A stretch of DNA of 44,429 nt. Source: Kamptonema formosum PCC 10802. Its GTDB lineage: Bacteria > Cyanobacteriota > Cyanobacteriia > Cyanobacteriales > Oscillatoriaceae. The position numbers and the translations under genes were made by a program. The DNA is taken from NCBI RefSeq assembly GCF_000332335.1, contig NZ_KB235948.1:4665243-4709671 (forward strand), in the 5' to 3' direction. Shown here in pieces: positions 1,105 to 16,724 of the stretch. Below the pieces are notes generated by a model that saw only the letters and a program-made list of their open reading frames with translations, ran no database searches and was not told where the DNA came from. Each line of letters opens with the position of its first letter. The first letter of the stretch is position 1.

Positions 1105-3015
1105 ATGTTGGGACAAACCCTTGCGGGGCGCTATAAAATCGTCAAATATCTGGGAGGCGGGGCATTTGGCCAAACTTTCCTCGCCTCAGACACCCAGCTA
1201 CCCGACAATCCTGAGTGCGTCGTCAAACAGCTTAAACCCCAGTATAACGATCCGTCTATCCTGCAAATTGCCAGCCGGTTATTCAAAACCGAAGCTCAAA
1301 CCCTCCAGAAATTGGGCGAGCACGACCAAATTCCCAGACTTTTGGCTCACTTTGAGGAAAATCAAGAATTCTATCTGGTGCAGCAATTCATCGACGGCGA
1401 CAGTCTGTGCGCGGAAATAAAACCGGGATGCAAGTGGACAGAAAAACAGACAGTTGCCTTTTTGCTGGATGTGCTGACAGCCCTCTCTTACGCCCATCAG
1501 CAAGGCGTGATCCACCGCGATATCAAACCGGCAAACTTAATCCGACGCCGCAAAGATAAGAAAATTGTCCTCATAGACTTTGGGGCGGTTAAGCAAGTGA
1601 GTACCGGGGTGGTTAATGCGCAGCAGAGTCAGACGAGTCTGACAGTTGGGATTGGCACCCCCGGATATATGCCAAGTGAGCAAACTCAGGGCAAACCCCA
1701 GTTTAGCAGCGATGTTTATGCCCTGGGAATCACGGCAATTCAAGCACTCACCGGCATCTCCCCAGAACGATTGCCCGAAGATCCCGTAACGGGGGAAGTT
1801 ATCTGGCGCAACTGGGCGAAAGTTAGTCCGAAGTTGGCAAACATTCTAGATAAAATGGTGCGCTATGATTACCGCCAGCGCTACTCGCCAGCATCTCAGG
1901 CGCTGCAAGCGGTTTCCTCTCTGACAAAACCGAATTCCCCCCTGACGCGCCGGCAAGTTGTCAAGCTGGCGGGATTTGCCGGTGGGGGATTTGTAGCGTC
2001 GGTTTTCGCCCGTCAGCTTTTCACCTCTCCCCCCTCTTCCCCAATAGTTGAGAATTCACCCTCACCCCCAAATCCTCTCCCACAAGCGGAACAAAGAGTT
2101 GATACTTCTCCCACACCTGAGACTCCGCCTCCCCCACCTAGAAGTAGGGGGAGTGAGGGCAAAACTTTGCAAACTTTTGCCTTCGACGCAATCACGGTAG
2201 ACGCGCGGGGGCGAGAAATCAACCGCACGCGCCGACAAGCTGAATATTTTACCCATGACTTAGGAGACGGAGTGATTTTAGAAATGGTGTCGATTCCGGG
2301 GGGAACTTTTATGATGGGTTCCCCGCAAACGGAGTCAGGGCGATATAGTGACGAAGGTCCGCAACGCCTAGTGACGGTGCAGCCTTTTTTTATGGGAAAG
2401 TACGCCATAACTCAGGCGCAGTGGAAAGTTGTCGCCGCTTTGCCTAAGGTAAATCGGGACTTAAATCCAGATCCGTCTCGATTCAAAGGCGCAAACAGGC
2501 CGGTGGAGAATGTATCGTGGGACGATGCGGTGGAATTTTGCGCCCGACTGTCCCAAAAAACCGGGCGCGACTACCGCTTACCCAGTGAAGCTGAGTGGGA
2601 ATATGCCTGTCGCGCCGGCACCACAACGCCTTTCCACTTCGGCGAGACAATTACGACTGATTTGGCTAACTACGACGGCAACTCTACCTACGCCTCCGCC
2701 CCGAAAGGTGTTTATCGCCAGCAGACAACAGATGTCGGGAGTTTTCCGCCGAACGCCTTTGGACTGTACGACATGCACGGCAATGTCTGGGAGTGGTGCG
2801 CCGATCTTTACCACGGGAATTATGCCGGTGCGCCGGTGGATGGGAGTGTCTGGAGTTCTGGCGGAAACGAAGATCGTCAATCCCGGATGCTACGTGGGGG
2901 TTCTTGGCGCAGCTATCCCGGGGTTTGCCGTGCGGCTTACCGCCACGGGTGCGGGCCGGAGTTCAGGGTTGGCGATCTCGGGTTCCGCGCGGTCGTTTCT
3001 GCTGTCAGGACTTAA
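1105..3015 (+). CDS. DGR target 1: Ser/Thr protein kinase fused to a formylglycine-generating-enzyme-like (C-type lectin) domain with variable C-terminus
   Basis: A 636-residue protein. The ATG at 1105 gives a normal kinase N-terminus ([13 protein letters not shown]); the upstream in-frame ATG at 937 lies in a tandem repeat. Kinase domain, residues about 10-270: Gly-rich loop GGGAFG, Lys41 in [11 protein letters not shown] at 137-144 with catalytic Asp139, DFG at 158-160, so it should be active. Residues 282-305 are hydrophobic and preceded by RR, probably a membrane anchor (a Tat-like signal is less likely). A Pro/Ser-rich linker follows, then from about residue 355 a sulfatase-modifying-factor-type domain ([36 protein letters not shown]). 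The last 40 residues (595-634) are encoded by VR1. In DGRs this fold displays diversified binding residues. A diversified receptor controlling a kinase is my inference. Confidence 0.93.
2878..3008 (+). repeat. DGR variable repeat 1 (VR1)
   Basis: VR1 matches the template repeat at 4671-4801 with a constant offset of 1793. From 2883 to 3008 (126 bases) there are 19 mismatches, each at a position where the template has A (10 become G, 6 become T, 3 become C by my reading) and none at other bases. Two more A mismatches lie at 2881-2882. It encodes residues 595-634 of target 1; 14 residues differ from the template translation, mostly at AAC/AAT (Asn) codons. The constant 3' part (TCGGGTTCCGCGC to GTCAG) is the likely initiation-of-mutagenic-homing site. 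Identity ends at 3009, where G replaces the template C. Confidence 0.97.
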
Positions 3016-3077
3016 TAGCCCTTTACCCTCTTCCCCTTTTGCCCTCTGCCCTTCTTTCCTTTTCCCTCTTCCCTCTC

Positions 3078-3105
3078 TCGCGCGAAGCGCGTCGCGATTT
3101 TTTTT
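3078..3105 (+). terminator. Hairpin followed by eight T, after target 1
   Basis: TCGCG at 3078-3082 can pair with CGCGA at 3093-3097, or CGCGC with GCGCG around a GAA loop at 3079-3091. Eight consecutive T follow at 3098-3105. This resembles an intrinsic terminator between target 1 and avd. It also lies 70 bases past VR1, where some DGRs carry a hairpin that helps homing. The sequence is typical of GCGCGAAGCGC repeats in cyanobacteria, so either role is uncertain. Confidence 0.4.
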
Positions 3106-3136
3106 GAAAAATGACCTATTATCTTTTTAGCGAACA

Positions 3137-3484
3137 ATGAGCGAATTACCCATTATCCAAAAAACCTATGACTTGGTTAAATGGTATGTCCCCATTTTGA
3201 ACCGGCTTCCGCGCCAGTACAAATTTACTGTTGGGGACCGGATGATAATTGGACTTTACGAACTTTTAGAAGGTCTGATATCAGCCCGATACGCCAAAGA
3301 CAAATTAGCCCAGCTGGAAGCGCTCAACATAAAAATAGACATCCTGCGCCACCAAACGCGCTTGCTCTTAGATTTTCACGAAATGTCAACCGAAAGGTAC
3401 GAGTACGCGGGAAAATTGCTCAATGACATCGGCACCGATTTGGGCGGCTGGATTAAACAGCAGCGCAAAAAAGACTCCCCGTGA
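3137..3484 (+). CDS. DGR accessory variability determinant (Avd), four-helix bundle protein
   Basis: A 115-residue, Lys/Arg-rich, mostly helical protein. It has the family signature LPRQYKFTVGDRM near residues 24-36 and the usual length of Avd proteins. In characterised DGRs Avd forms a pentameric barrel that binds the reverse transcriptase and template RNA and is needed for mutagenic cDNA synthesis. It lies between the target gene and the reverse transcriptase, a common order. No strong Shine-Dalgarno sequence precedes the ATG at 3137. The stop codon lies in a 13-bp repeat that separates it from the reverse transcriptase gene. Function is assigned from family resemblance and context and is very likely right. 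Confidence 0.93.
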   Translation: MSELPIIQKTYDLVKWYVPILNRLPRQYKFTVGDRMIIGLYELLEGLISARYAKDKLAQLEALNIKIDILRHQTRLLLDFHEMSTERYEYAGKLLNDIGTDLGGWIKQQRKKDSP

Positions 3485-3513
3485 AACCTCCCCGTGAAAC
3501 CTCCCCGTGAAAC
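3475..3513 (+). repeat. Three tandem copies of a 13-bp unit between avd and the RT gene
   Basis: CTCCCCGTGAAAC is repeated exactly three times at 3475-3487, 3488-3500 and 3501-3513. The first copy contains the avd stop codon; the third contains an in-frame GTG (3507) that could be an alternative RT start. Copy-number change here would move the RT start relative to avd without affecting either core domain. Confidence 0.9.
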
Positions 3514-3545
3514 TGAAAACATCTCACCTGATTTCTCAGCCACCC

Positions 3546-4655
3546 ATGAAACGATACGGCAACCTGTTCCCCCAAATTGTAGATTTCGCCAACCTGCTAT
3601 CCGCCGCGCGAAAAGCTCAGCGCGGCAAACGCTTTCGCCCAAATGTCCTGGAGTTCAACTACAACCTGGAAGGAAACCTGCTGCAACTCCAGGAAGAATT
3701 GAAATCCAAAACCTACACTCCTGGCGCGTACAGGACTTTTGAGATTTCCCAACCCAAGCGGCGGCTAATTTCAGCAGCGCCTTACCGGGATAGAATTGTT
3801 CACCACGCTCTCTGCAATATTATTGCCCCACTTGTCGAGCGAAGTTTTATTAGTGATTCCTACGCAAACCGTGTTGGGTTTGGCACTCACCGCGCTTTGC
3901 GCCGGTTCACGAAATTCGCCCGCTCAAGTAAGTACATCCTCCAGTGCGACGTGCGAAAATATTTCCCCAGCATCGATCACAGCATACTCAAAAAACTGAT
4001 CCGCCGCCAGATTAAATGTCCCGATACGCTGTGGCTGCTTGATAAAATCATCGATAACAGCAACCCGCAAGAACCTGTGATAGAATATTTCCCAGGAGAC
4101 GATTTGCTCGCACCCCTAAACCGGCGGCGCGGTTTGCCAATTGGCAACCTGACAAGCCAATTTTTGGCCAATCTTTACCTGAACAGTCTCGACCATTTTG
4201 TGAAAGAACAGCTGAAAGCAGAAAAATACATCCGCTTTGCCGATGACTTCGCTCTCTTCTCCGACAGCTGGGAATTTTTAGCCGGTGCGCGAATCGAGAT
4301 AGAGTCACACCTCGCCACCCTGCGTCTGAAAATTCACCCCATCAAAAGCCAGCTGTTTGAAACGCGATACGGCGCAAGCTTTGTGGGATTTCGCATCCTC
4401 CCGGATCGCATACGAGTGCGCCAAGAAAATCTGCGCCGCGCCTTCCGCCGGTTGCGCCAGTTGCGGGAAGATTGGATTGCCGGTAGAATTGGACTCTCCG
4501 CAATATACCGTTCAGTTCAAAGCTGGGTGGCTCATTTGAAACACGGCGACACCTGGAGATTGTGCCAGAAACCCGTATTCTTAAAGAAACCGGGGTTCTC
4601 CGTAACTAGGAGATTGCGCCAAAAAATCTTGACAACTTTCGCCTTGATGCTATAA
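3546..4655 (+). CDS. DGR reverse transcriptase
   Basis: A 369-residue RNA-directed DNA polymerase when started at ATG 3546 ([14 protein letters not shown]), the family-like start; GTG 3507 in a tandem repeat would add 13 residues. Visible motifs: [31 protein letters not shown] (first catalytic Asp), LPIGNLTSQ at about 199-205, and [11 protein letters not shown] with the catalytic FADD near 230. IGxxxSQ in place of QGxxxSP is diagnostic of DGR enzymes, in which this motif is tied to adenine misincorporation. The template repeat starts 16 bases after the stop. The last ~30 residues (from 4566) are encoded by a dispersed hairpin repeat also found at five other sites here, so the tail is probably not conserved. 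Confidence 0.95.
4566..4600 (+). repeat. Dispersed GAAACCCGG-type hairpin inside the 3' end of the RT gene
   Basis: A 35-base imperfect palindrome: CAGAAACCCGTATTC, short TAAA centre, then GAAACCGGGGTTCTC. It belongs to the same family as the repeats at 25837-25870, 34613-34646, 37393-37426, 42019-42045 and 43402-43434. It is read in frame as [12 protein letters not shown] near the RT C-terminus. Confidence 0.85.
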
Positions 4656-4670
4656 TAGAATTGGAATCGG

Positions 4671-4801
4671 CAAAACCGGATGCAACGTGGGGGTTCTTGG
4701 AACAACAATCCCAGGAATTGCCGTGCGGCTAACCGCAACAGGAACGAGCCGGAGTTCAGGAATGACAATCTCGGGTTCCGCGCAGTCGTTTCTGCTGTCA
4801 G
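4671..4801 (+). other. DGR template repeat (TR)
   Basis: This is the invariant donor copy of VR1, in the same orientation. Over 4676-4801 it has 29 adenines; 19 are changed in VR1 and no other base is. Read in the VR frame it gives Asn-rich variable sites ([21 protein letters not shown] then LGFRAV), the usual AAY-rich template design that spreads over many amino acids when A is randomised and avoids stop codons. It has no coding role of its own: the open frame over it is the reading frame of the protein it templates. The RT stop is at 4655, so the TR transcript may be the 3' part of the avd-RT mRNA. Confidence 0.97.
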
Positions 4802-5344
4802 CACTCTTCAATGTGAGAGCCGGCGGATGGGAATTCGTCGGGAGAGCGGAAGAGTCCAGCCGGTTCCAGTGATGGGCAATCCCATCCGAACATCAAACTG
4901 GGTGGAGTGGCTTGGTAGGCTGTGCCGAAGTGTCGCTCCCCCAAACAGAGTGTTTATATGCCGACACCTATCCCATTATTCTTAATATAACACAACTCCA
5001 CAAAATTGTGCCGGTGAAATGTAAAAATTTTATGACAATTTTATGAATTTTTTCGCCGGCTCTTCCCCCAAGCACGCCGCCGCCGGCACCGATTGCAGAT
5101 ACCCCCCGCTGTAGGGAGGTGCGCCGGCACGCACTCCAGGGATTCTACCGGCTGCCGGTGCCTGCCGGCTAAGTCCAGCACCCGACTGTGCCGGAACCAA
5201 GCGTCAGCCTGCTGCGTATACCCGCGCCTGGCTAGAAACATGGGCGGTGAACCAGATTTAAACTCGCACATCTATAAAATAGAAGAAATAGAGAGAGGCG
5301 ATGGGTAAAATAGAGATAACTCTCCCACCGGCACCCTTTTCCCA
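4802..5344. other. Noncoding region after TR
   Basis: No convincing gene. The first ~180 bases, to the AT-rich tract near 4980, have few repeats and are a candidate for the structured spacer RNA that follows TR in studied DGRs and primes cDNA synthesis; this is only positional. From about 5040 to 5240 the DNA is rich in CCGGC/GCCGG and looks like degenerate intergenic sequence. No clear ribosome-binding site precedes target 2. Confidence 0.5.
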
Positions 5345-7144
5345 ATGATTTACTGCCTCAATCCTACTTGCGTCCTGCCCGAAAATCCAGATGGCACAAA
5401 CTTCTGCATGAGTTGCGGGACAAAACTGTCCCCGCTGCTCAGAGGGAGATATAGCATAATTCGCGCTATCGGTCAAGAGGGGTTTAGCAAAACCTACTTG
5501 GCAGTGGACAGAGACTGGCGCAACGCCTGGTGTGCCGTCAAACAGTTCTCCCCCTCACCGGCACTTCAAAACAGCCCGCCGGTGCTGGAAAAAGCGCGGG
5601 AGTTCTTTAACCTTGAAGCGGAAAAACTGCTTCACTTAGAAGAACACCCGCAGATTCCCACCCTGTTCGCTTACTTCGAGGAAAATAATAGGCTGTACCT
5701 GGTGCAGCAGTTCATCAAAGGACACACCTTGCTCGAAGAGCTGCAGCAAGAGGGAACCTTCAGCGAGCCGAAGATTCGGAAAGTTCTGGGAGATTTACTG
5801 CCGGTGCTGCAATTCGTGCACGACAGAAAAGTCACTCACAGAAATATCAAACCAGAGAGCATCATCCGCCGGCAAAGCGATGGCAAATTAGTGCTGGCAG
5901 ACTTCGGGGTGGCCAAACAGTGGGCCGGCACGCTGTTGAGCCGGCAGAGGGCAGTACCCCGACGGATACGCGCCGTGGGGCAAATGCGCGGTGTCGCTCA
6001 CCCCGCCAGCGACTTGTACAGTTTGGCTGTAACTTGCATCCGCCTGATGACTGGCTGCTTTCCAAAAGCCGACGGTGCTGACGAACTGTTTGATGCGATG
6101 GAAAGCTGCTGGCGGTGGCGAGAAAAACTGCCTGCCGGCACATCTGTCAGCCCGGAATTGGAACAAGTTTTGGATAAATTGCTCTCAGATTATTTCAAAG
6201 ATCGATATCAGTCTGCGGCGGAAGTGATGGCGGCGCTTGCGCCCTCAACCCCCACCCCCATCGCCCAAAGAGGGAGTGGGAGCGCGAAAGGATTGCTTCT
6301 CAGTTCCTTTGCATTCGAGATGGTGACAGTTGATGCGCGGGGGCGAGAAATTAACCGCAGTCGCCGGGGAGCTGAATACTTTCCCGAAAACTTAGGAGGC
6401 GGAATAATTTTAGAAATGGTTTCCATTCCAGGGGGAACCTTTACGATGGGTTCGCCGAAGACTGAAGAAGGGCGATTTGACAGTGAAAGTCCGCAGCACT
6501 CGGTAACAGTGGAGCCCTTTTTTATGGGGAAGTATGCGATCACTCAGGCGCAGTGGAAAGCTGTCGCTCTGTTGCCCAAAGTCAGCGGCGACTTAAATCC
6601 CGATCCTTCTTATATCAAAGGCGCAAACAGGCCGGTGGAATATGTATCCTGGAATGATGCAGTGGAATTCTGCGCCAGACTGTCGGAACAAACCGGGCGC
6701 AACTACCGGCTTCCCAGCGAGGCGGAGTGGGAATATGCCTGTCGCGCGGGAACCACAACCCCTTTTCACTTCGGCGAGACGATAACCTCAGATTTGGCTA
6801 ACTACGACGGGAACTATACCTACGCTTCAGGGCGAAAAGGCAAATACCGCAAGCGAACAACCGATGTGGGGAGTTTTCCGCCGAACGCTTTTGGGCTGTA
6901 CGACACGCACGGAAATGTTTGGGAGTGGTGCGCCGATCCCTGGCACGATGATTACACGGGTGCGCCGTCGGATGGGAGTGTCTGGGAAGCCGGTGGGAAC
7001 AAAAATCGCCGGCTGTTGCGGGGTGGTTCTTGGTATTACTTCCCCAGACGGTGCCGTGCGGCTTTTCGCTGCTGGTTCGTGCCCGACTTCAGGTATGGCA
7101 TCTTTGGTTTTCGCGTTGCCCTTTCCTTGCCGAGGAATCAATAG
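5345..7144 (+). CDS. DGR target 2: zinc ribbon, degenerate Ser/Thr kinase, and formylglycine-generating-enzyme-like domain with variable C-terminus
   Basis: A 599-residue protein. The N-terminus has a four-Cys zinc ribbon (Cys4, Cys9, Cys21, Cys24). The kinase-like domain (about 33-300) keeps the Lys in CAVKQF and a DFG at 186-188, but the catalytic loop reads HRNIKPES (165-172): the catalytic Asp is Asn167 and the metal-binding Asn is Ser172. The glycine loop is also weak (GQEGFSKT). It is therefore probably a pseudokinase. A short linker leads to the lectin-like domain ([36 protein letters not shown]), very similar to target 1, ending in VR2. Unlike target 1 there is no hydrophobic segment after the kinase, so it is probably cytoplasmic. 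Interaction with target 1 is possible but not shown by sequence. Confidence 0.9.
   Translation: MIYCLNPTCVLPENPDGTNFCMSCGTKLSPLLRGRYSIIRAIGQEGFSKTYLAVDRDWRNAWCAVKQFSPSPALQNSPPVLEKAREFFNLEAEKLLHLEEHPQIPTLFAYFEENNRLYLVQQFIKGHTLLEELQQEGTFSEPKIRKVLGDLLPVLQFVHDRKVTHRNIKPESIIRRQSDGKLVLADFGVAKQWAGTLLSRQRAVPRRIRAVGQMRGVAHPASDLYSLAVTCIRLMTGCFPKADGADELFDAMESCWRWREKLPAGTSVSPELEQVLDKLLSDYFKDRYQSAAEVMAALAPSTPTPIAQRGSGSAKGLLLSSFAFEMVTVDARGREINRSRRGAEYFPENLGGGIILEMVSIPGGTFTMGSPKTEEGRFDSESPQHSVTVEPFFMGKYAITQAQWKAVALLPKVSGDLNPDPSYIKGANRPVEYVSWNDAVEFCARLSEQTGRNYRLPSEAEWEYACRAGTTTPFHFGETITSDLANYDGNYTYASGRKGKYRKRTTDVGSFPPNAFGLYDTHGNVWEWCADPWHDDYTGAPSDGSVWEAGGNKNRRLLRGGSWYYFPRRCRAAFRCWFVPDFRYGIFGFRVALSLPRNQ
7011..7124 (+). 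repeat. DGR variable repeat 2 (VR2), diverged
   Basis: Over 38 codons aligned without gaps to TR (from its ATG codon at 4680), about 21 of 28 template adenines are changed but also about 19 of 86 other bases; many of the latter are third-position silent changes (GGG to GGT, TTC to TTT). Variable sites fall in the same Asn codons as VR1 (SWYYFPRRC versus SWNNNPRNC). This fits an old mutagenic homing event followed by drift, or homing from a different, related template. Confidence 0.8.
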
Positions 7145-7187
7145 CGTGTTTCGCTATTGCGGTTTTGTCTTTTACCGGCAAAAGTTC

Positions 7188-7249
7188 GTAGGGGCGGGTT
7201 TACTAATATCTGAACTTCGCAGAGACATTTTGGGTGAACCCGCCCCTAC
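7188..7249. repeat. 62-bp inverted repeat ending in GTAGGGGCGGGTT
   Basis: GTAGGGGCGGGTTTA at 7188-7202 is matched by TGAACCCGCCCCTAC at 7235-7249 (14 of 15 pairs). Similar GGGGCGGG pieces occur near 18121, 19081, 19200, 19390 and 43975, so it is a dispersed palindromic element. It could also act as a transcription stop after target 2. Confidence 0.75.
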
Positions 7250-7532
7250 TTTAGCCCCACAAGTTTGTAGTTGGGCTAATGCCCCACAGGTTTGCACTCC
7301 GGGAGGCTTCTGGGCACCCACCGACTGATTCAACCGCACAAGTGCCCCGATAGCCGCAGGCGCACTCCCGCAGAGGCCGCTTGATGCCTGTCGTTTGCCG
7401 GTGGCAGGCATCCGGGGTGAGCCAGCTCCAGCCCCCTGTCTCTCATATAACCAACAAATTAAGTGGAAAACCTATAATTTTTACTCGCTGTCTAACTTTA
7501 CAGCCCAGTGCTGATAAATTAAGCAACTTATT

Positions 7533-9594: not shown

Positions 9595-10629
9595 ATGAAA
9601 CGTTTAATCGTTTGCTGTGATGGAACTTGGCAAAAATTAACCGACCCCTGTCCAACCAACGTCGTTAAAATTGCACAAGCGATTAAGCCTGTCGCTAGTG
9701 ATGGAACGCTTCAGTTACTCTACTATGATGAGGGCGTCGGTACGGATGAGGATGCAGCAGAGAGGTTTTTGGGGGGAGCTTTCGGCAAAGGAATTGACCA
9801 AAATATCCAAGATGCGTATCGCTTTCTTTGCCTGAACTATGTTGAGGGAGATGAAATTTACCTGTTTGGCTTCAGTCGTGGCGCTTATACGGTCAGGAGT
9901 CTGGCCGGACTGATGTATAACACCGGCCTGTTAAAACGCGAAAACATCCGTCAAGCGCCGGAAGCTTATCAGCTTTACTGTAACAGGGGGATTGCGCCGA
10001 GTGACGAGGAGGCAAAAGACTTCCGGAAAGAAAATAGTCTTGGAAGTCGGGTTGAAATCACCCTTTTAGGTTGCTGGGATACAGTCGGTTCTTTGGGAAT
10101 TCCCGATCTATCGTACTTTGGGCCACTCACGCAACAGCTCAACAATCAATACAGGTTCCACGACACTCAGCTGAATAAAAAGATTAAAAACGCCCTCCAT
10201 GCGGTGGCGATTGATGAGCAGCGCAAAGTCTTCAATGTCACGCCGATGCACAAACATCCTGACGCTCCAGACCAAGTGCTGCGCCAAGTCTGGTTTCCAG
10301 GAGATCATGGCTGTGTCGGCGGTGGGACGCTGAAGAAAAGTAAATTAGCAGATGGCACTTTGAAGTGGATGATTGAATCTATTGGCTCCTTAGGACTGGG
10401 TCTGGAGTTCGATATCAGTAAAATCAATCCTCCTCTTGACTTTGACTATACCTGCGATTTTCAGGTAAAGAGCATCATCGAGAAGGCCACAAAACTGGGG
10501 GGAACTATACTTCGGGAGATTGGAGATGAAATTGATGAATTGCATGAAAGTGTAAAATTGCGCTGGAAACAGCGATCGGACTACCGACCCCCCAACTTGA
10601 AAAAGTACCTAGACAAACTAGAAGCATAA
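9595..10629 (+). CDS. DUF2235 alpha/beta-hydrolase (lipase-like)
   Basis: A 344-residue protein of the DUF2235 family, the fold found in the phospholipase domain of Tle1-type type VI effectors and in free-standing bacterial proteins. Start: MKRLIVCCDGTWQ, the typical family N-terminus. Nucleophile motif GFSRGAYTVRSLAGL with Ser94; oxyanion/aspartate regions are likely in YDEGVGT and LGCWDTVGSLG; a late His is present in WFPGDHGCVGGG. There is no signal peptide, so it is probably cytoplasmic. It is followed after 98 bases by a cyclooxygenase-like gene. A role in releasing fatty acid from lipid for that enzyme is an inference; the substrate is unknown. Confidence 0.85.
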   Translation: MKRLIVCCDGTWQKLTDPCPTNVVKIAQAIKPVASDGTLQLLYYDEGVGTDEDAAERFLGGAFGKGIDQNIQDAYRFLCLNYVEGDEIYLFGFSRGAYTVRSLAGLMYNTGLLKRENIRQAPEAYQLYCNRGIAPSDEEAKDFRKENSLGSRVEITLLGCWDTVGSLGIPDLSYFGPLTQQLNNQYRFHDTQLNKKIKNALHAVAIDEQRKVFNVTPMHKHPDAPDQVLRQVWFPGDHGCVGGGTLKKSKLADGTLKWMIESIGSLGLGLEFDISKINPPLDFDYTCDFQVKSIIEKATKLGGTILREIGDEIDELHESVKLRWKQRSDYRPPNLKKYLDKLEA

Positions 10630-10727: not shown

Positions 10728-12368
10728 ATGGCCTCACAAAGAGACACATCAAGAGACGGGCTAAGAAATAAAGTTGAGACTTTGTTGCTGACAAAGTTTA
10801 AGCCGATGTGGGCTTTTATTCAAAGCAACGATTTTCTCAAGAGGGCAGTTAATAAAACTCTCATCAATAATGCCATCAATAAAATTCCCAATCGTCCCTA
10901 TCCGTTCAGTACGAAGTCTCCTTACACGTCTTGGGAGTCATTAAACGATCGCACTTATTCCGGACTCCACCTACCGCCTACGAGTTGGAAACCTTTAACC
11001 GATCGCAACTATATAGGCGTTAACTTAACCCCTGGGGAGGAGTTCGAGACAAATCTTCCTCCTGTCGAAGACCTAGCGGTCTTATATAAGAAGACCGGAG
11101 AAACTAAATACTCCCCAAAATCCAGCCTGATTTTCCCCTATTTCGTTCAGTGGTTTACCGACAGTTTTCTGCGTACAGACCGGCAGAATCACCTCAGGAA
11201 TAGTTCAAATCACCAAATCGACCTTTGTAATGTCTATGGATTGACCCCAGAAATTACTCGTCTGTTGAGGTCTTATCAAGGGGGGAAACTAAAAAGCCAA
11301 ATTATCAATGGGGAAGAATATCCTCCTTTTTACTACGATGAGAATGGCCAAGCCAAGGAAGAATTCAAAGGAATGCCTCATCTAGTAACCGCTGAAGGGG
11401 TTAATAAAGCAGATACCTTACCCCCAGAAAGAAAACAAAAGTTATTTGCTCTGGGGTTAGAGGTTGAGCGGGCCAATGTCCAAATTGGTTATGTGATGCT
11501 GAACGTTCTTTGCTTACGAGAGCACAATCGCGTGTGCGATCTCTTAGCAAAGAGTTATCCCACTTGGGATGACGAGCGACTGTATCACACAGCCAGAAAC
11601 ATTGTGATGGTTGAGTTCCTCAAAATTGTGCTTGAGGATTATATTAACCACATCACCCCCTATCAATTTCAATTCTTCACCGATCCCCTTGCGTTTACTA
11701 ATGAGAAATGGTATCGCACGAATTGGATGTCGGTAGAATTTACTCTAGTCTATCGCTGGCACAGTATGCTGCCCGATACGATCGTGTGCGACGGGCAAAA
11801 CATTCCTGTCCCCGACACGATGTGGAACAATGAGATGATTATTAAGAAGGGTTTGGGAGCTATATTTGAGGAATCTTGCTCCCAACCGGCAGCCCAACTG
11901 AGCTTATTCAACACGCCTGATTTCCTGGTACACACTGAGCTGGCCAGTATTCGGTTAGGTCGCGCGGCAAAACTGCGGACTTATAACGATTACCGCGAGT
12001 TGTGCAAGTATCCGCGCGTCACCGATTTCAATCAAATTAGTGGCGATGAAAAAGTTCAAAAAGAACTGGAGCGCTTGTACGGGCATGTAGACAATATTGA
12101 GCTATATGTGGGGCTCTACGCAGAAGACCTGCGGCCAAATTCAGCTTTGCCTCCCTTGGTGGGCCGGCTGATAGGCATTGATGCCTTTTCTCAAGCGTTC
12201 ACCAATCCTCTGCTCGCAGAGCATGTTTTCAATCCAGAAACTTTTTCACCAGTAGGGTGGGAAGAGATTATGAATACGAAGACTCTCTCCCAGGTGTTGA
12301 ATCGCAATGTTCCTCCAGGGAAAGAGTATAATGTTTCTTTCTATCGCGAGGGTTGGCAGCCGGTGTAA
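10728..12368 (+). CDS. Cyclooxygenase-like heme dioxygenase (animal-type heme peroxidase superfamily)
   Basis: A 546-residue protein clearly homologous to animal prostaglandin G/H synthases over the whole catalytic domain, without the EGF module or signal peptide. Matching blocks: YTSWESLNDRTYSG (residues about 65-78), LCLREHNRVCDLLA with PTWDDERL, the radical-site segment EFTLVYRWHSMLPD with Tyr342, Trp344 and proximal His345 (Tyr385/His388 in COX numbering), ELERLYGHVDNIELYVGL, and IGIDAFSQAFTNPL, whose Ser aligns with the aspirin-acetylated serine. The distal heme region reads FVQWFTD: Gln141 is kept but the distal His is Asp145. Bacterial relatives oxygenate unsaturated fatty acids to hydroperoxides. 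Good ribosome-binding site (AAGGA). Product and position specificity cannot be read from sequence. Confidence 0.9.
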   Translation: MASQRDTSRDGLRNKVETLLLTKFKPMWAFIQSNDFLKRAVNKTLINNAINKIPNRPYPFSTKSPYTSWESLNDRTYSGLHLPPTSWKPLTDRNYIGVNLTPGEEFETNLPPVEDLAVLYKKTGETKYSPKSSLIFPYFVQWFTDSFLRTDRQNHLRNSSNHQIDLCNVYGLTPEITRLLRSYQGGKLKSQIINGEEYPPFYYDENGQAKEEFKGMPHLVTAEGVNKADTLPPERKQKLFALGLEVERANVQIGYVMLNVLCLREHNRVCDLLAKSYPTWDDERLYHTARNIVMVEFLKIVLEDYINHITPYQFQFFTDPLAFTNEKWYRTNWMSVEFTLVYRWHSMLPDTIVCDGQNIPVPDTMWNNEMIIKKGLGAIFEESCSQPAAQLSLFNTPDFLVHTELASIRLGRAAKLRTYNDYRELCKYPRVTDFNQISGDEKVQKELERLYGHVDNIELYVGLYAEDLRPNSALPPLVGRLIGIDAFSQAFTNPLLAEHVFNPETFSPVGWEEIMNTKTLSQVLNRNVPPGKEYNVSFYREGWQPV

Positions 12369-16667: not shown

Positions 16668-16696
16668 TTGACAAAAGGTGAAAAAAGTAGTAGAAT
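16668..16696 (+). promoter_or_regulatory. Sigma-70-type promoter for the NB-ARC gene
   Basis: A perfect TTGACA at 16668-16673, 17 bases, then TAGAAT at 16691-16696. The start codon at 16725 would be about 20 nt after the transcription start. This explains why the apparent TTG start at 16668 is not a translation start: it is the -35 box. Confidence 0.7.
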
Positions 16697-16724
16697 CTCC
16701 GTAAAACTACGCAATAACTCGCCT

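Follow-up and report, generated by a model that had tools for sequence, protein, structure and literature searches.

A diversity-generating retroelement of Kamptonema formosum PCC 10802 with a conserved structured RNA directly 3' of its template repeat

A diversity-generating retroelement (DGR) was identified in a 44,429-nt stretch of the genome of Kamptonema formosum PCC 10802 (the window; coordinates are window positions unless a genome or locus label is given). The cassette contains a target gene, an accessory variability determinant gene (avd), a reverse transcriptase (RT) gene and a template repeat (TR), and the variable repeat VR1 lies at the C-terminus of the target (Table 1). TR and VR1 align without gaps; 19 of the 29 template adenines are changed in VR1 (11 to G, 6 to T and 2 to C) and none of the 97 other positions is, which gives a Fisher p of 1.3e-15 for the restriction of the differences to adenines. 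These counts had been reported from inspection of the sequence alone (the sequence-only reading) and were reproduced to the base. The TR was also compared with both strands of the window at all offsets; after VR1, the best position was 7009-7134, with 25 non-adenine mismatches, and the following ones had at least 50. No codon of the TR can be converted to a stop by changes at adenines, and about 10^15 protein variants are reachable.

The target gene encodes a Ser/Thr kinase joined to an FGE-sulfatase domain (Pfam Pkinase, E = 1.3e-37; FGE-sulfatase, E = 3e-59). It is therefore a target of the C-type-lectin fold, as assigned by sequence, with the VR at its 3' end, and its solved relatives include Treponema denticola variable protein 1 (2y3c). 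The avd product matched Pfam bAvd with 70 bits and NCBIfam DivGenRetAVD with 136.7 bits against a cut-off of 80. The motif xGxxxSQ marks DGR-type RTs and xGxxxSP marks group II RTs; the RT of the window has the former. Its closest solved relative, by sequence (profile A2), is 8ub7 (E = 3.8e-67), which we take to be the BPP-1 DGR complex. The genome (8.59 Mb, nine contigs) contains one RT of this kind; a further match, only 27% identical (E = 4e-6), was rejected as a second. The parts of the complete DGR that the sequence-only reading had claimed, namely a TR/VR pair, a DGR-type RT and Avd, are all present, together with a kinase-FGE target. The extent proposed for it, 1105-4801, holds for these parts but ends too early, since a conserved RNA 3' of the TR reaches 4942. 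A second kinase-FGE gene follows, with an end that differs from the TR at 21 of 29 adenines and 25 of 97 other positions; this adenine-biased gene is probably a retired target (or a paralogue). An assignment to a defence system was rejected, as the profiles gave generic kinase and RT matches only.

The GTDB species genomes were scanned for the RT, and the best 80 of the 293 loci found were used. Of these 80, 76 carry cyanobacterial record titles (63-85% identical) and four do not. The identity is mostly 63-73% among the relatives and reaches 85% in a congener (G002). A candidate TR/VR pair was found in 71 of 81 loci (the best 80 and the window) by a mechanical search with a loose threshold, so that some pairs are spurious, and a stricter pair (at most two non-adenine and at least eight adenine changes in 90 bases) in 66 of the 81. 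The TR mostly lies shortly 3' of the RT. Since the order VR-avd-RT-TR is common among the related loci, the cassette is an ordinary member of this group, and it is a genuine DGR of the ordinary cyanobacterial kind. All 159 phage records matching the RT showed less than 60% identity, and six plasmid records, all cyanobacterial, showed 60-80% identity among the 5000 matches listed.

The sequence directly 3' of the TR is conserved across the loci and forms a structured RNA of 143 nt, termed R1. Alignment of R1 began from the 66 loci passing the strict pair filter, of which 58 were kept (A1); L081, L091 and L103, L101 (no anchor), L075 (a duplicate), and L030, L070 and L090 (insertions or odd ends) were left out, and all eight were later found by the R1 covariance model. 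The alignment contains 40 consensus pairs, 32 of which show a change on both sides at least once. Paired cells amount to 96.3%, compared with 83.3% in shuffles and 26-45% when the structure is slid, and double changes number 352 compared with 93. Kinship alone can beat shuffles without structure; the slid controls retain relatedness, although the structure was derived from the same alignment and thereby has an advantage over its slid versions. The R1 stretch of the window alone gave a moderate signal (z = -2.4 against its own shuffles, 3 of 200 being as good). R1 is a conserved, covarying RNA family. No Rfam family was found in it at the gathering score, and a permissive scan gave a chance microRNA match (E = 5.2). 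The model recovers R1 at 19 of 23 RT loci outside model building, with none in L032, L064, L069 and L078. Four of the recovered loci carry R1 on the strand opposite to the RT, so R1 is not a by-product of the 3' end of the RT gene. R1 was also found on plasmids of Anabaena sp. 90 and Acaryochloris marina, and with E = 6e-6 just downstream of an RT (43% identical) on a Prosthecochloris plasmid. The four close RT relatives outside cyanobacterial records (L063, L087, L091 and L102, from Parabeggiatoa, Thioploca, Thiotrichaceae and Blastocatellia records) all have R1, which may reflect transfer beyond cyanobacteria or a binning error.

Table 1. Positions of the cassette parts and related features in the window
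Feature	Position	Strand	Basis or remark
Target gene, Ser/Thr kinase + FGE-sulfatase (C-type-lectin-like), VR1 at C-terminus	1105-3015	+	Pfam
VR1	2883-3008 (looser similarity 2873-3012)	+	changes relative to TR confined to adenines
AGGACT at VR 3' boundary; candidate difference of initiation of mutagenic homing elements (IMH/IMH*)	3007-3012	+	TR reads AGCACT (4800-4805)
Hairpin then T-run, terminator-like	3080-3092	+	pattern scan; about 70 bp past VR1
avd, accessory variability determinant	3137-3484	+	PF22296 (bAvd), NF033474
DGR reverse transcriptase, likely start ATG 3546	3507-4655	+	RVT_1; PIGNLTSQ and FADD
Sigma-70-type promoter match, 12/12	4629-4656	+	pattern scan; ends 20 nt before TR
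TR, template repeat	4676-4801	+	gap-free pairing with VR1
R1, structured RNA 3' of TR	4800-4942	+	58-sequence covariation
R1 helix	4803-4809/4849-4855	+	
R1 helix	4813-4814/4846-4847	+	
R1 helix with GGGA loop	4820-4828/4833-4841	+	
R1 helix	4869-4875/4882-4887	+	
R1 helix with inner 4918-4920/4924-4926	4901-4912/4931-4942	+	
Second kinase-FGE gene, VR-like end 7009-7134	5345-7144	+	probable retired target or paralogue

Thirteen FGE matches are present in the genome, one of them being the TR itself. VR2 (C3:855080, 3.8 Mb away) lies in a trypsin-like protease-FGE gene and differs from the TR at 9 of 29 adenines and 1 of 97 other positions. VR3 (C3:4764730, 95 kb away) lies in another kinase-FGE gene and differs at 15 of 29 and 1 of 97, respectively. 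From this pattern of differences, one TR has also rewritten two distant genes. Neither these targets served in trans nor the RNA 3' of the TR figured in the sequence-only reading. Nine FGE matches remain: six of them show 11, 18, 20, 25, 36 and 36 non-adenine changes on alignment, and three do not align with fewer than 45. A second TR in the genome was rejected: VR2 and VR3 are the sole adenine-only matches besides the TR and VR1, the others being diverged FGE ends (8 of the 19 TR matches were compared, the other 11 being weaker and short with E at least 0.27). The VR3 locus (L147) contains, at 6983-7404, a truncated avd and 63 bp matching window positions 4949-5011, just past R1 in the window; overall, it matches 2176-3395 and 4949-5011, and the intervening stretch is gone. 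The locus looks like a copied cassette that has no RT, TR or R1 any more.

The times at which the targets were rewritten were approached by comparison with the congener, the only one of two searched that gave a good TR match. In its own cassette, TR and VR1 differ at 13 of 31 adenines and at none of 95 other positions. Orthologous VRs of the two genomes were compared over 31 adenine and 87 other sites. VR1 orthologues differ at 19 adenine and 3 other sites (upstream, 58/600) and VR2 orthologues at 13 and 4 (45/594), whereas VR4 orthologues differ at 0 and 3 (14/600) and VR5 orthologues at 0 and 5 (37/573). By these differences, VR1 and VR2 have been rewritten since the split from the congener, and VR4 and VR5 have not. 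The congener lacks a clear orthologue of VR3. Neither of the observations that the sequence-only reading had named as contrary to it, an identical VR1 in all strains or non-adenine mismatches in related genomes, was made in this pair. Its statement that the system was active recently stands in so far as the comparison points to rewriting since the split, but the absence of drift between TR and VR1, from which it had argued, only dates the last rewriting. The split itself is not very recent, as the RT genes of the two genomes have a synonymous divergence of about 0.23.

The TRs of the two genomes differ at 7 of the first 118 positions. At these diagnostic sites, the letter of the Kamptonema TR is found at seven of seven in VR1 and at six of seven in both VR2 and VR3, and the VR2 of the congener carries the letter of its own TR at seven of seven. 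The transfer of these letters from the Kamptonema TR to its VRs is further evidence of recent activity. The exception is TR position 95, which is A in VR2, VR3 and the congener and C in the TR and VR1. The simplest reading of these letters is that the TR changed from A to C after VR2 and VR3 had last been written and before VR1 was written; VR2 and VR3 were probably last written before VR1. An independent A-to-C change in VR1 is possible; among VR1-VR3, 4 of 87 adenine sites were changed to C. The polarity at position 95 rests on the congener and VR4, because the TRs of less closely related genomes carry different bases there.

The VR/TR boundary was compared in 81 pairs from 58 loci, which had been chosen for having a pair. 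The letters of TR and VR are identical in 75-80 of the 81 pairs at positions -14 to -1, and in 69, 62 and 15 pairs at 0, +1 and +2, respectively. At +2, the VR has G in 69 pairs and the TR has C in 57. The identity thus ends sharply at the start of R1. BPP-1 has an IMH/IMH* difference, which this pattern resembles. A flank similar to that holding the terminator-like hairpin also follows VR2 and VR3 and is absent at two frozen VRs; the hairpin may or may not mark active VRs, since diverged copies in the congener (L157) are followed by the same flank as well. An inverted repeat of the BPP-1 type was not found within a few bases 3' of the VR in a scan that covered hairpins with a T-run. The promoter match upstream of the TR is also complete in the congener (L026) and perfect in none of the other 72 loci scanned. 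A clade-wide TR promoter was rejected as unconvincing, since matches with up to three mismatches occurred in 20 of 74 loci, compared with 13.9% of shuffles.

Taken together, the locus is very probably a DGR of the cyanobacterial kind in which a TR-R1 transcript would be bound by RT-Avd and the TR serves three genes. The transcript of the TR would continue into the folded R1, which RT-Avd would bind as a handle, as it does the spacer Sp of BPP-1, and R1 would probably also be the priming platform. The RT would copy the TR with errors at adenines, and in FGE/C-type-lectin-like genes the VR, at the 3' end, would be replaced by the cDNA; two of the three genes served by the TR are far away. The rewritten region is likely the ligand-binding tip of the target proteins, and the kinase and protease fusions suggest putative sensor proteins with a recognition face that is reshuffled.

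Several points weigh against this reading. Binding and priming by R1 are proposed by analogy, and the R1 model gave a non-significant score at the BPP-1 spacer (6.3 bits, E = 0.29), albeit in the right place. Positions 3000-5100 contain two promoter-like sites (at least 9/12) compared with 2.0 in shuffles, which is no excess, and two terminator-like sites compared with 3.3, which is no better than chance. Recency is judged from the final states of the sequences. The non-adenine difference common to VR2 and VR3 could reflect gene conversion between them; VR2 and VR3 share three adenine-site changes and share four and five with VR1, so there is no excess between the two. That only final states are visible also leaves room for a once-active DGR that is now silent, its VRs having been rewritten after speciation and no longer changing. 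VR2 and VR3 retain a letter that predates the present TR and so have probably not been overwritten since the TR changed, and two other VRs of the genome are frozen. VR1 matches the current TR at 97 of 97 non-adenine sites, though, and the reading frames of RT and avd are open and show purifying selection relative to the congener (ratios of nonsynonymous to synonymous divergence of 0.25 for RT, 0.13 for avd, 0.17 for FGE before the VR and 0.45 for the kinase), so a silent system is considered less likely.

An origin of VR2 and VR3 as copies of VR1, by duplication or conversion instead of writing in trans, would agree with the cassette remnant at the VR3 locus. It is highly improbable, because VR1, VR2 and VR3 differ mutually at many adenine sites and otherwise only at position 95, the VR2 orthologue follows the TR of its own genome at the seven diagnostic sites, and upstream of the VRs the genes show 54-78 differences in 600 positions. 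R1 might also be only a terminator or a DNA-level target structure, and its last helix could indeed end a transcript. Such a limited role is improbable for a region directly 3' of the TR with several covarying stems over 143 nt and conserved unpaired letters, and the scan of 3000-5100 gave no terminator-like site after R1. The reading of R1 as the handle of RT-Avd is thus preferred.

R1 copies were searched in 292 cyanobacterial genomes; ten candidates were scored per genome, so the R1 count is a lower bound. At least 43 matches were found in 27 genomes, and 24 RT matches at E <= 1e-60, some of them fragments, in 19. Of the R1 copies, 21 have such an RT match within 5 kb and 22 have none; three RT matches have no R1 within 5 kb. 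Ten R1-bearing genomes have no RT match at this threshold. A profile of 17 clade RTs gave nothing at E <= 0.01 in G131, G112, G035, G222 and G308, and in the other five the readable motifs were GxxxSP, or GxxxSG in G008 and G155, with two matches unreadable. G098 contains a DGR RT fragment of 87 positions. Avd was over the cut-off in none of the ten; weaker matches were found in G112 (33.4 bits), G155 (27.6) and G131 (21.7).

Nineteen of the 22 RT-distant copies were fetched (G300:C54, G129:C26 and G230:C28 were left out) and 18 were analysed as a set, the nineteenth (G306:C1:5414469) having no VR nearby. No RT or avd was found within about 6 kb at the 18 loci. A VR is present near R1 at nine of them. 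Adenine-only changes were found at L215 (14/26 adenines, 0/86 others), L216 (8/26, 0/86), L221 (8/27, 0/85), L222 (14/24, 0/88) and L228 (12/26, 0/86), whereas L211 (9/19, 2/93), L226 (15/25, 2/87), L212 (11/21, 6/91) and L224 (17/25, 12/87) also show other changes. The five adenine-only loci represent three independent units, as L215, L216 and L228 (G131, G253 and G267) are copies of a single unit. Between these copies, TR-R1 shows differences at 1-3 of 260 positions and the surroundings do not match, a pattern that suggests that this RT-less unit moves. At six of the remaining nine loci, the frame of the target gene runs into R1 with a stop at -13 to +29, which would be the expected remnant of a VR-TR recombination deleting avd and RT; L214, L217 and L227 show neither this arrangement nor a VR nearby.

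The RT-less TRs differ from the RT-linked TR of the same genome at 43 of 117 positions in G306 (the nearer of two), 37 of 115 in G057 and 49 of 120 in G267. Because the difference is strong, the neighbouring VR would have been written from the RT-less template. The enzyme for these units may lie 1.2-4.0 Mb away or may since have been lost; the RT match of G057 contains one internal stop. G131 and G253, which have adenine-only VRs and in which no RT was found, need an enzyme recently lost, borrowed or unassembled. An assembly gap is unlikely in the near-closed G131 and G253 (two contigs) and G308 (one contig); such a gap may apply in G008 (220 contigs), and lost plasmids may also play a part. 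In an alignment of 17 of the 18 RT-less copies (L220 was left out), R1 pairing is kept and 23 of 35 pairs show double changes; this pairing may be inherited from RT-bearing ancestors. The RT-less R1 copies beside an adenine-only VR are apparently templates read in trans.

In Nodularia spumigena CCY9414, 70 copies of a "potential DGR1 ncRNA element" are mentioned in the accessible portion of an earlier report (PMC3610870). A repeat of 296 bp (118-413 of a 614-bp query; L269, C1:3866804-3867417) lies between RT and R1 at one DGR locus of G306 and has at least 39 other near-identical copies there (40 of 112 candidates were scored). It is probably the element of that report and neither TR nor R1, and it looks like an unrelated repeat inserted in that TR rather than copies of TR-R1. 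As it excludes R1 (465-614), the reported 70 copies would not speak against R1 copies as templates. The chances appear evenly balanced for a split system, in which a few RT-Avd sources serve many dispersed, non-autonomous units (target, VR, TR and R1) read in trans via R1. About half of the templates would then be missed by surveys that start from the RT, some genomes would keep usable templates after loss of the enzyme or rely on one supplied by a plasmid or neighbour, and target genes joined directly to R1 would be what VR-TR recombination leaves behind when it deletes avd and RT.

Kinase-CLec (C-type lectin) targets and remote targets of cyanobacterial DGRs have been described, as far as the accessible text extends, by Vallota-Eastman et al. 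2020 (PMC7517822). The accessible portions of that account and of Dore et al. 2024 (PMC10907252; clade 5E) share with the present cassette the order VR-avd-RT-TR, the kinase-CLec targets and the remote targets; an RNA structure 3' of the TR is not mentioned in them. Unlike in the systems described, the history of the template here orders the rewriting of the targets. In BPP-1, a structured spacer directly 3' of the TR recruits bRT-Avd, according to the available part of PMC12875486. RT-Avd, TR, adenine mutagenesis and a structured RNA directly 3' of the TR are thus common to both, but the TR precedes brt in BPP-1 and follows the RT here. BPP-1 also needs a hairpin directly after the VR (PMC3240598, in its available text), whereas the nearest terminator-like hairpin here is about 70 bp on. 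In Thiohalocapsa PB-PSB1, the targets of DGR 4 and DGR 5 agree with the TR of a different locus, DGR 2 (PMC10907252, accessible sections). RT-less loci and targets diversified in trans are a likeness to that system, but the RT-less cyanobacterial units have their own, very different TR and R1. Reading in trans, RT-less loci and a structured spacer were thus already known, to judge from these partial sources; what stands out here is the sequence in which targets were rewritten, as deduced from template letters, together with the R1 model and the copies it finds away from an RT. Neither a clade-wide covarying RNA 3' of the TR nor RT-less units with their own template were found described in the open-access literature searched, which leaves most subscription journals outside, so this absence proves little. 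Mutagenesis by a cyanobacterial DGR had not yet been seen in culture according to the accessible part of PMC12691664.

Several other features are present in the window. Directly before the cassette, at 1-836, a 268-bp unit occurs three times in tandem, with 95-96% identity to the first copy, and is followed by 14-bp and 7-bp repeats to about 1015. A Tle1-like phospholipase-domain protein adjoins an animal-type haem peroxidase (9595-10629 and 10728-12368), and 26646-28583 encodes a protein with many RTX calcium-binding repeats. An NB-ARC/NACHT NTPase is encoded at 16668-18101; NACHT defences have been linked with DGR targets of this lineage (PMC10907252, accessible text).

The changing letters of a template record which target was rewritten when, without the need for culture. 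The R1 model finds templates without an RT, far from a detectable enzyme or even where none is detected, and R1 is a defined RNA whose mutation would help to learn what recruits the enzyme. Should the RT-less units indeed be read in trans, RT-based counts of hypermutable cyanobacterial genes would be too low.

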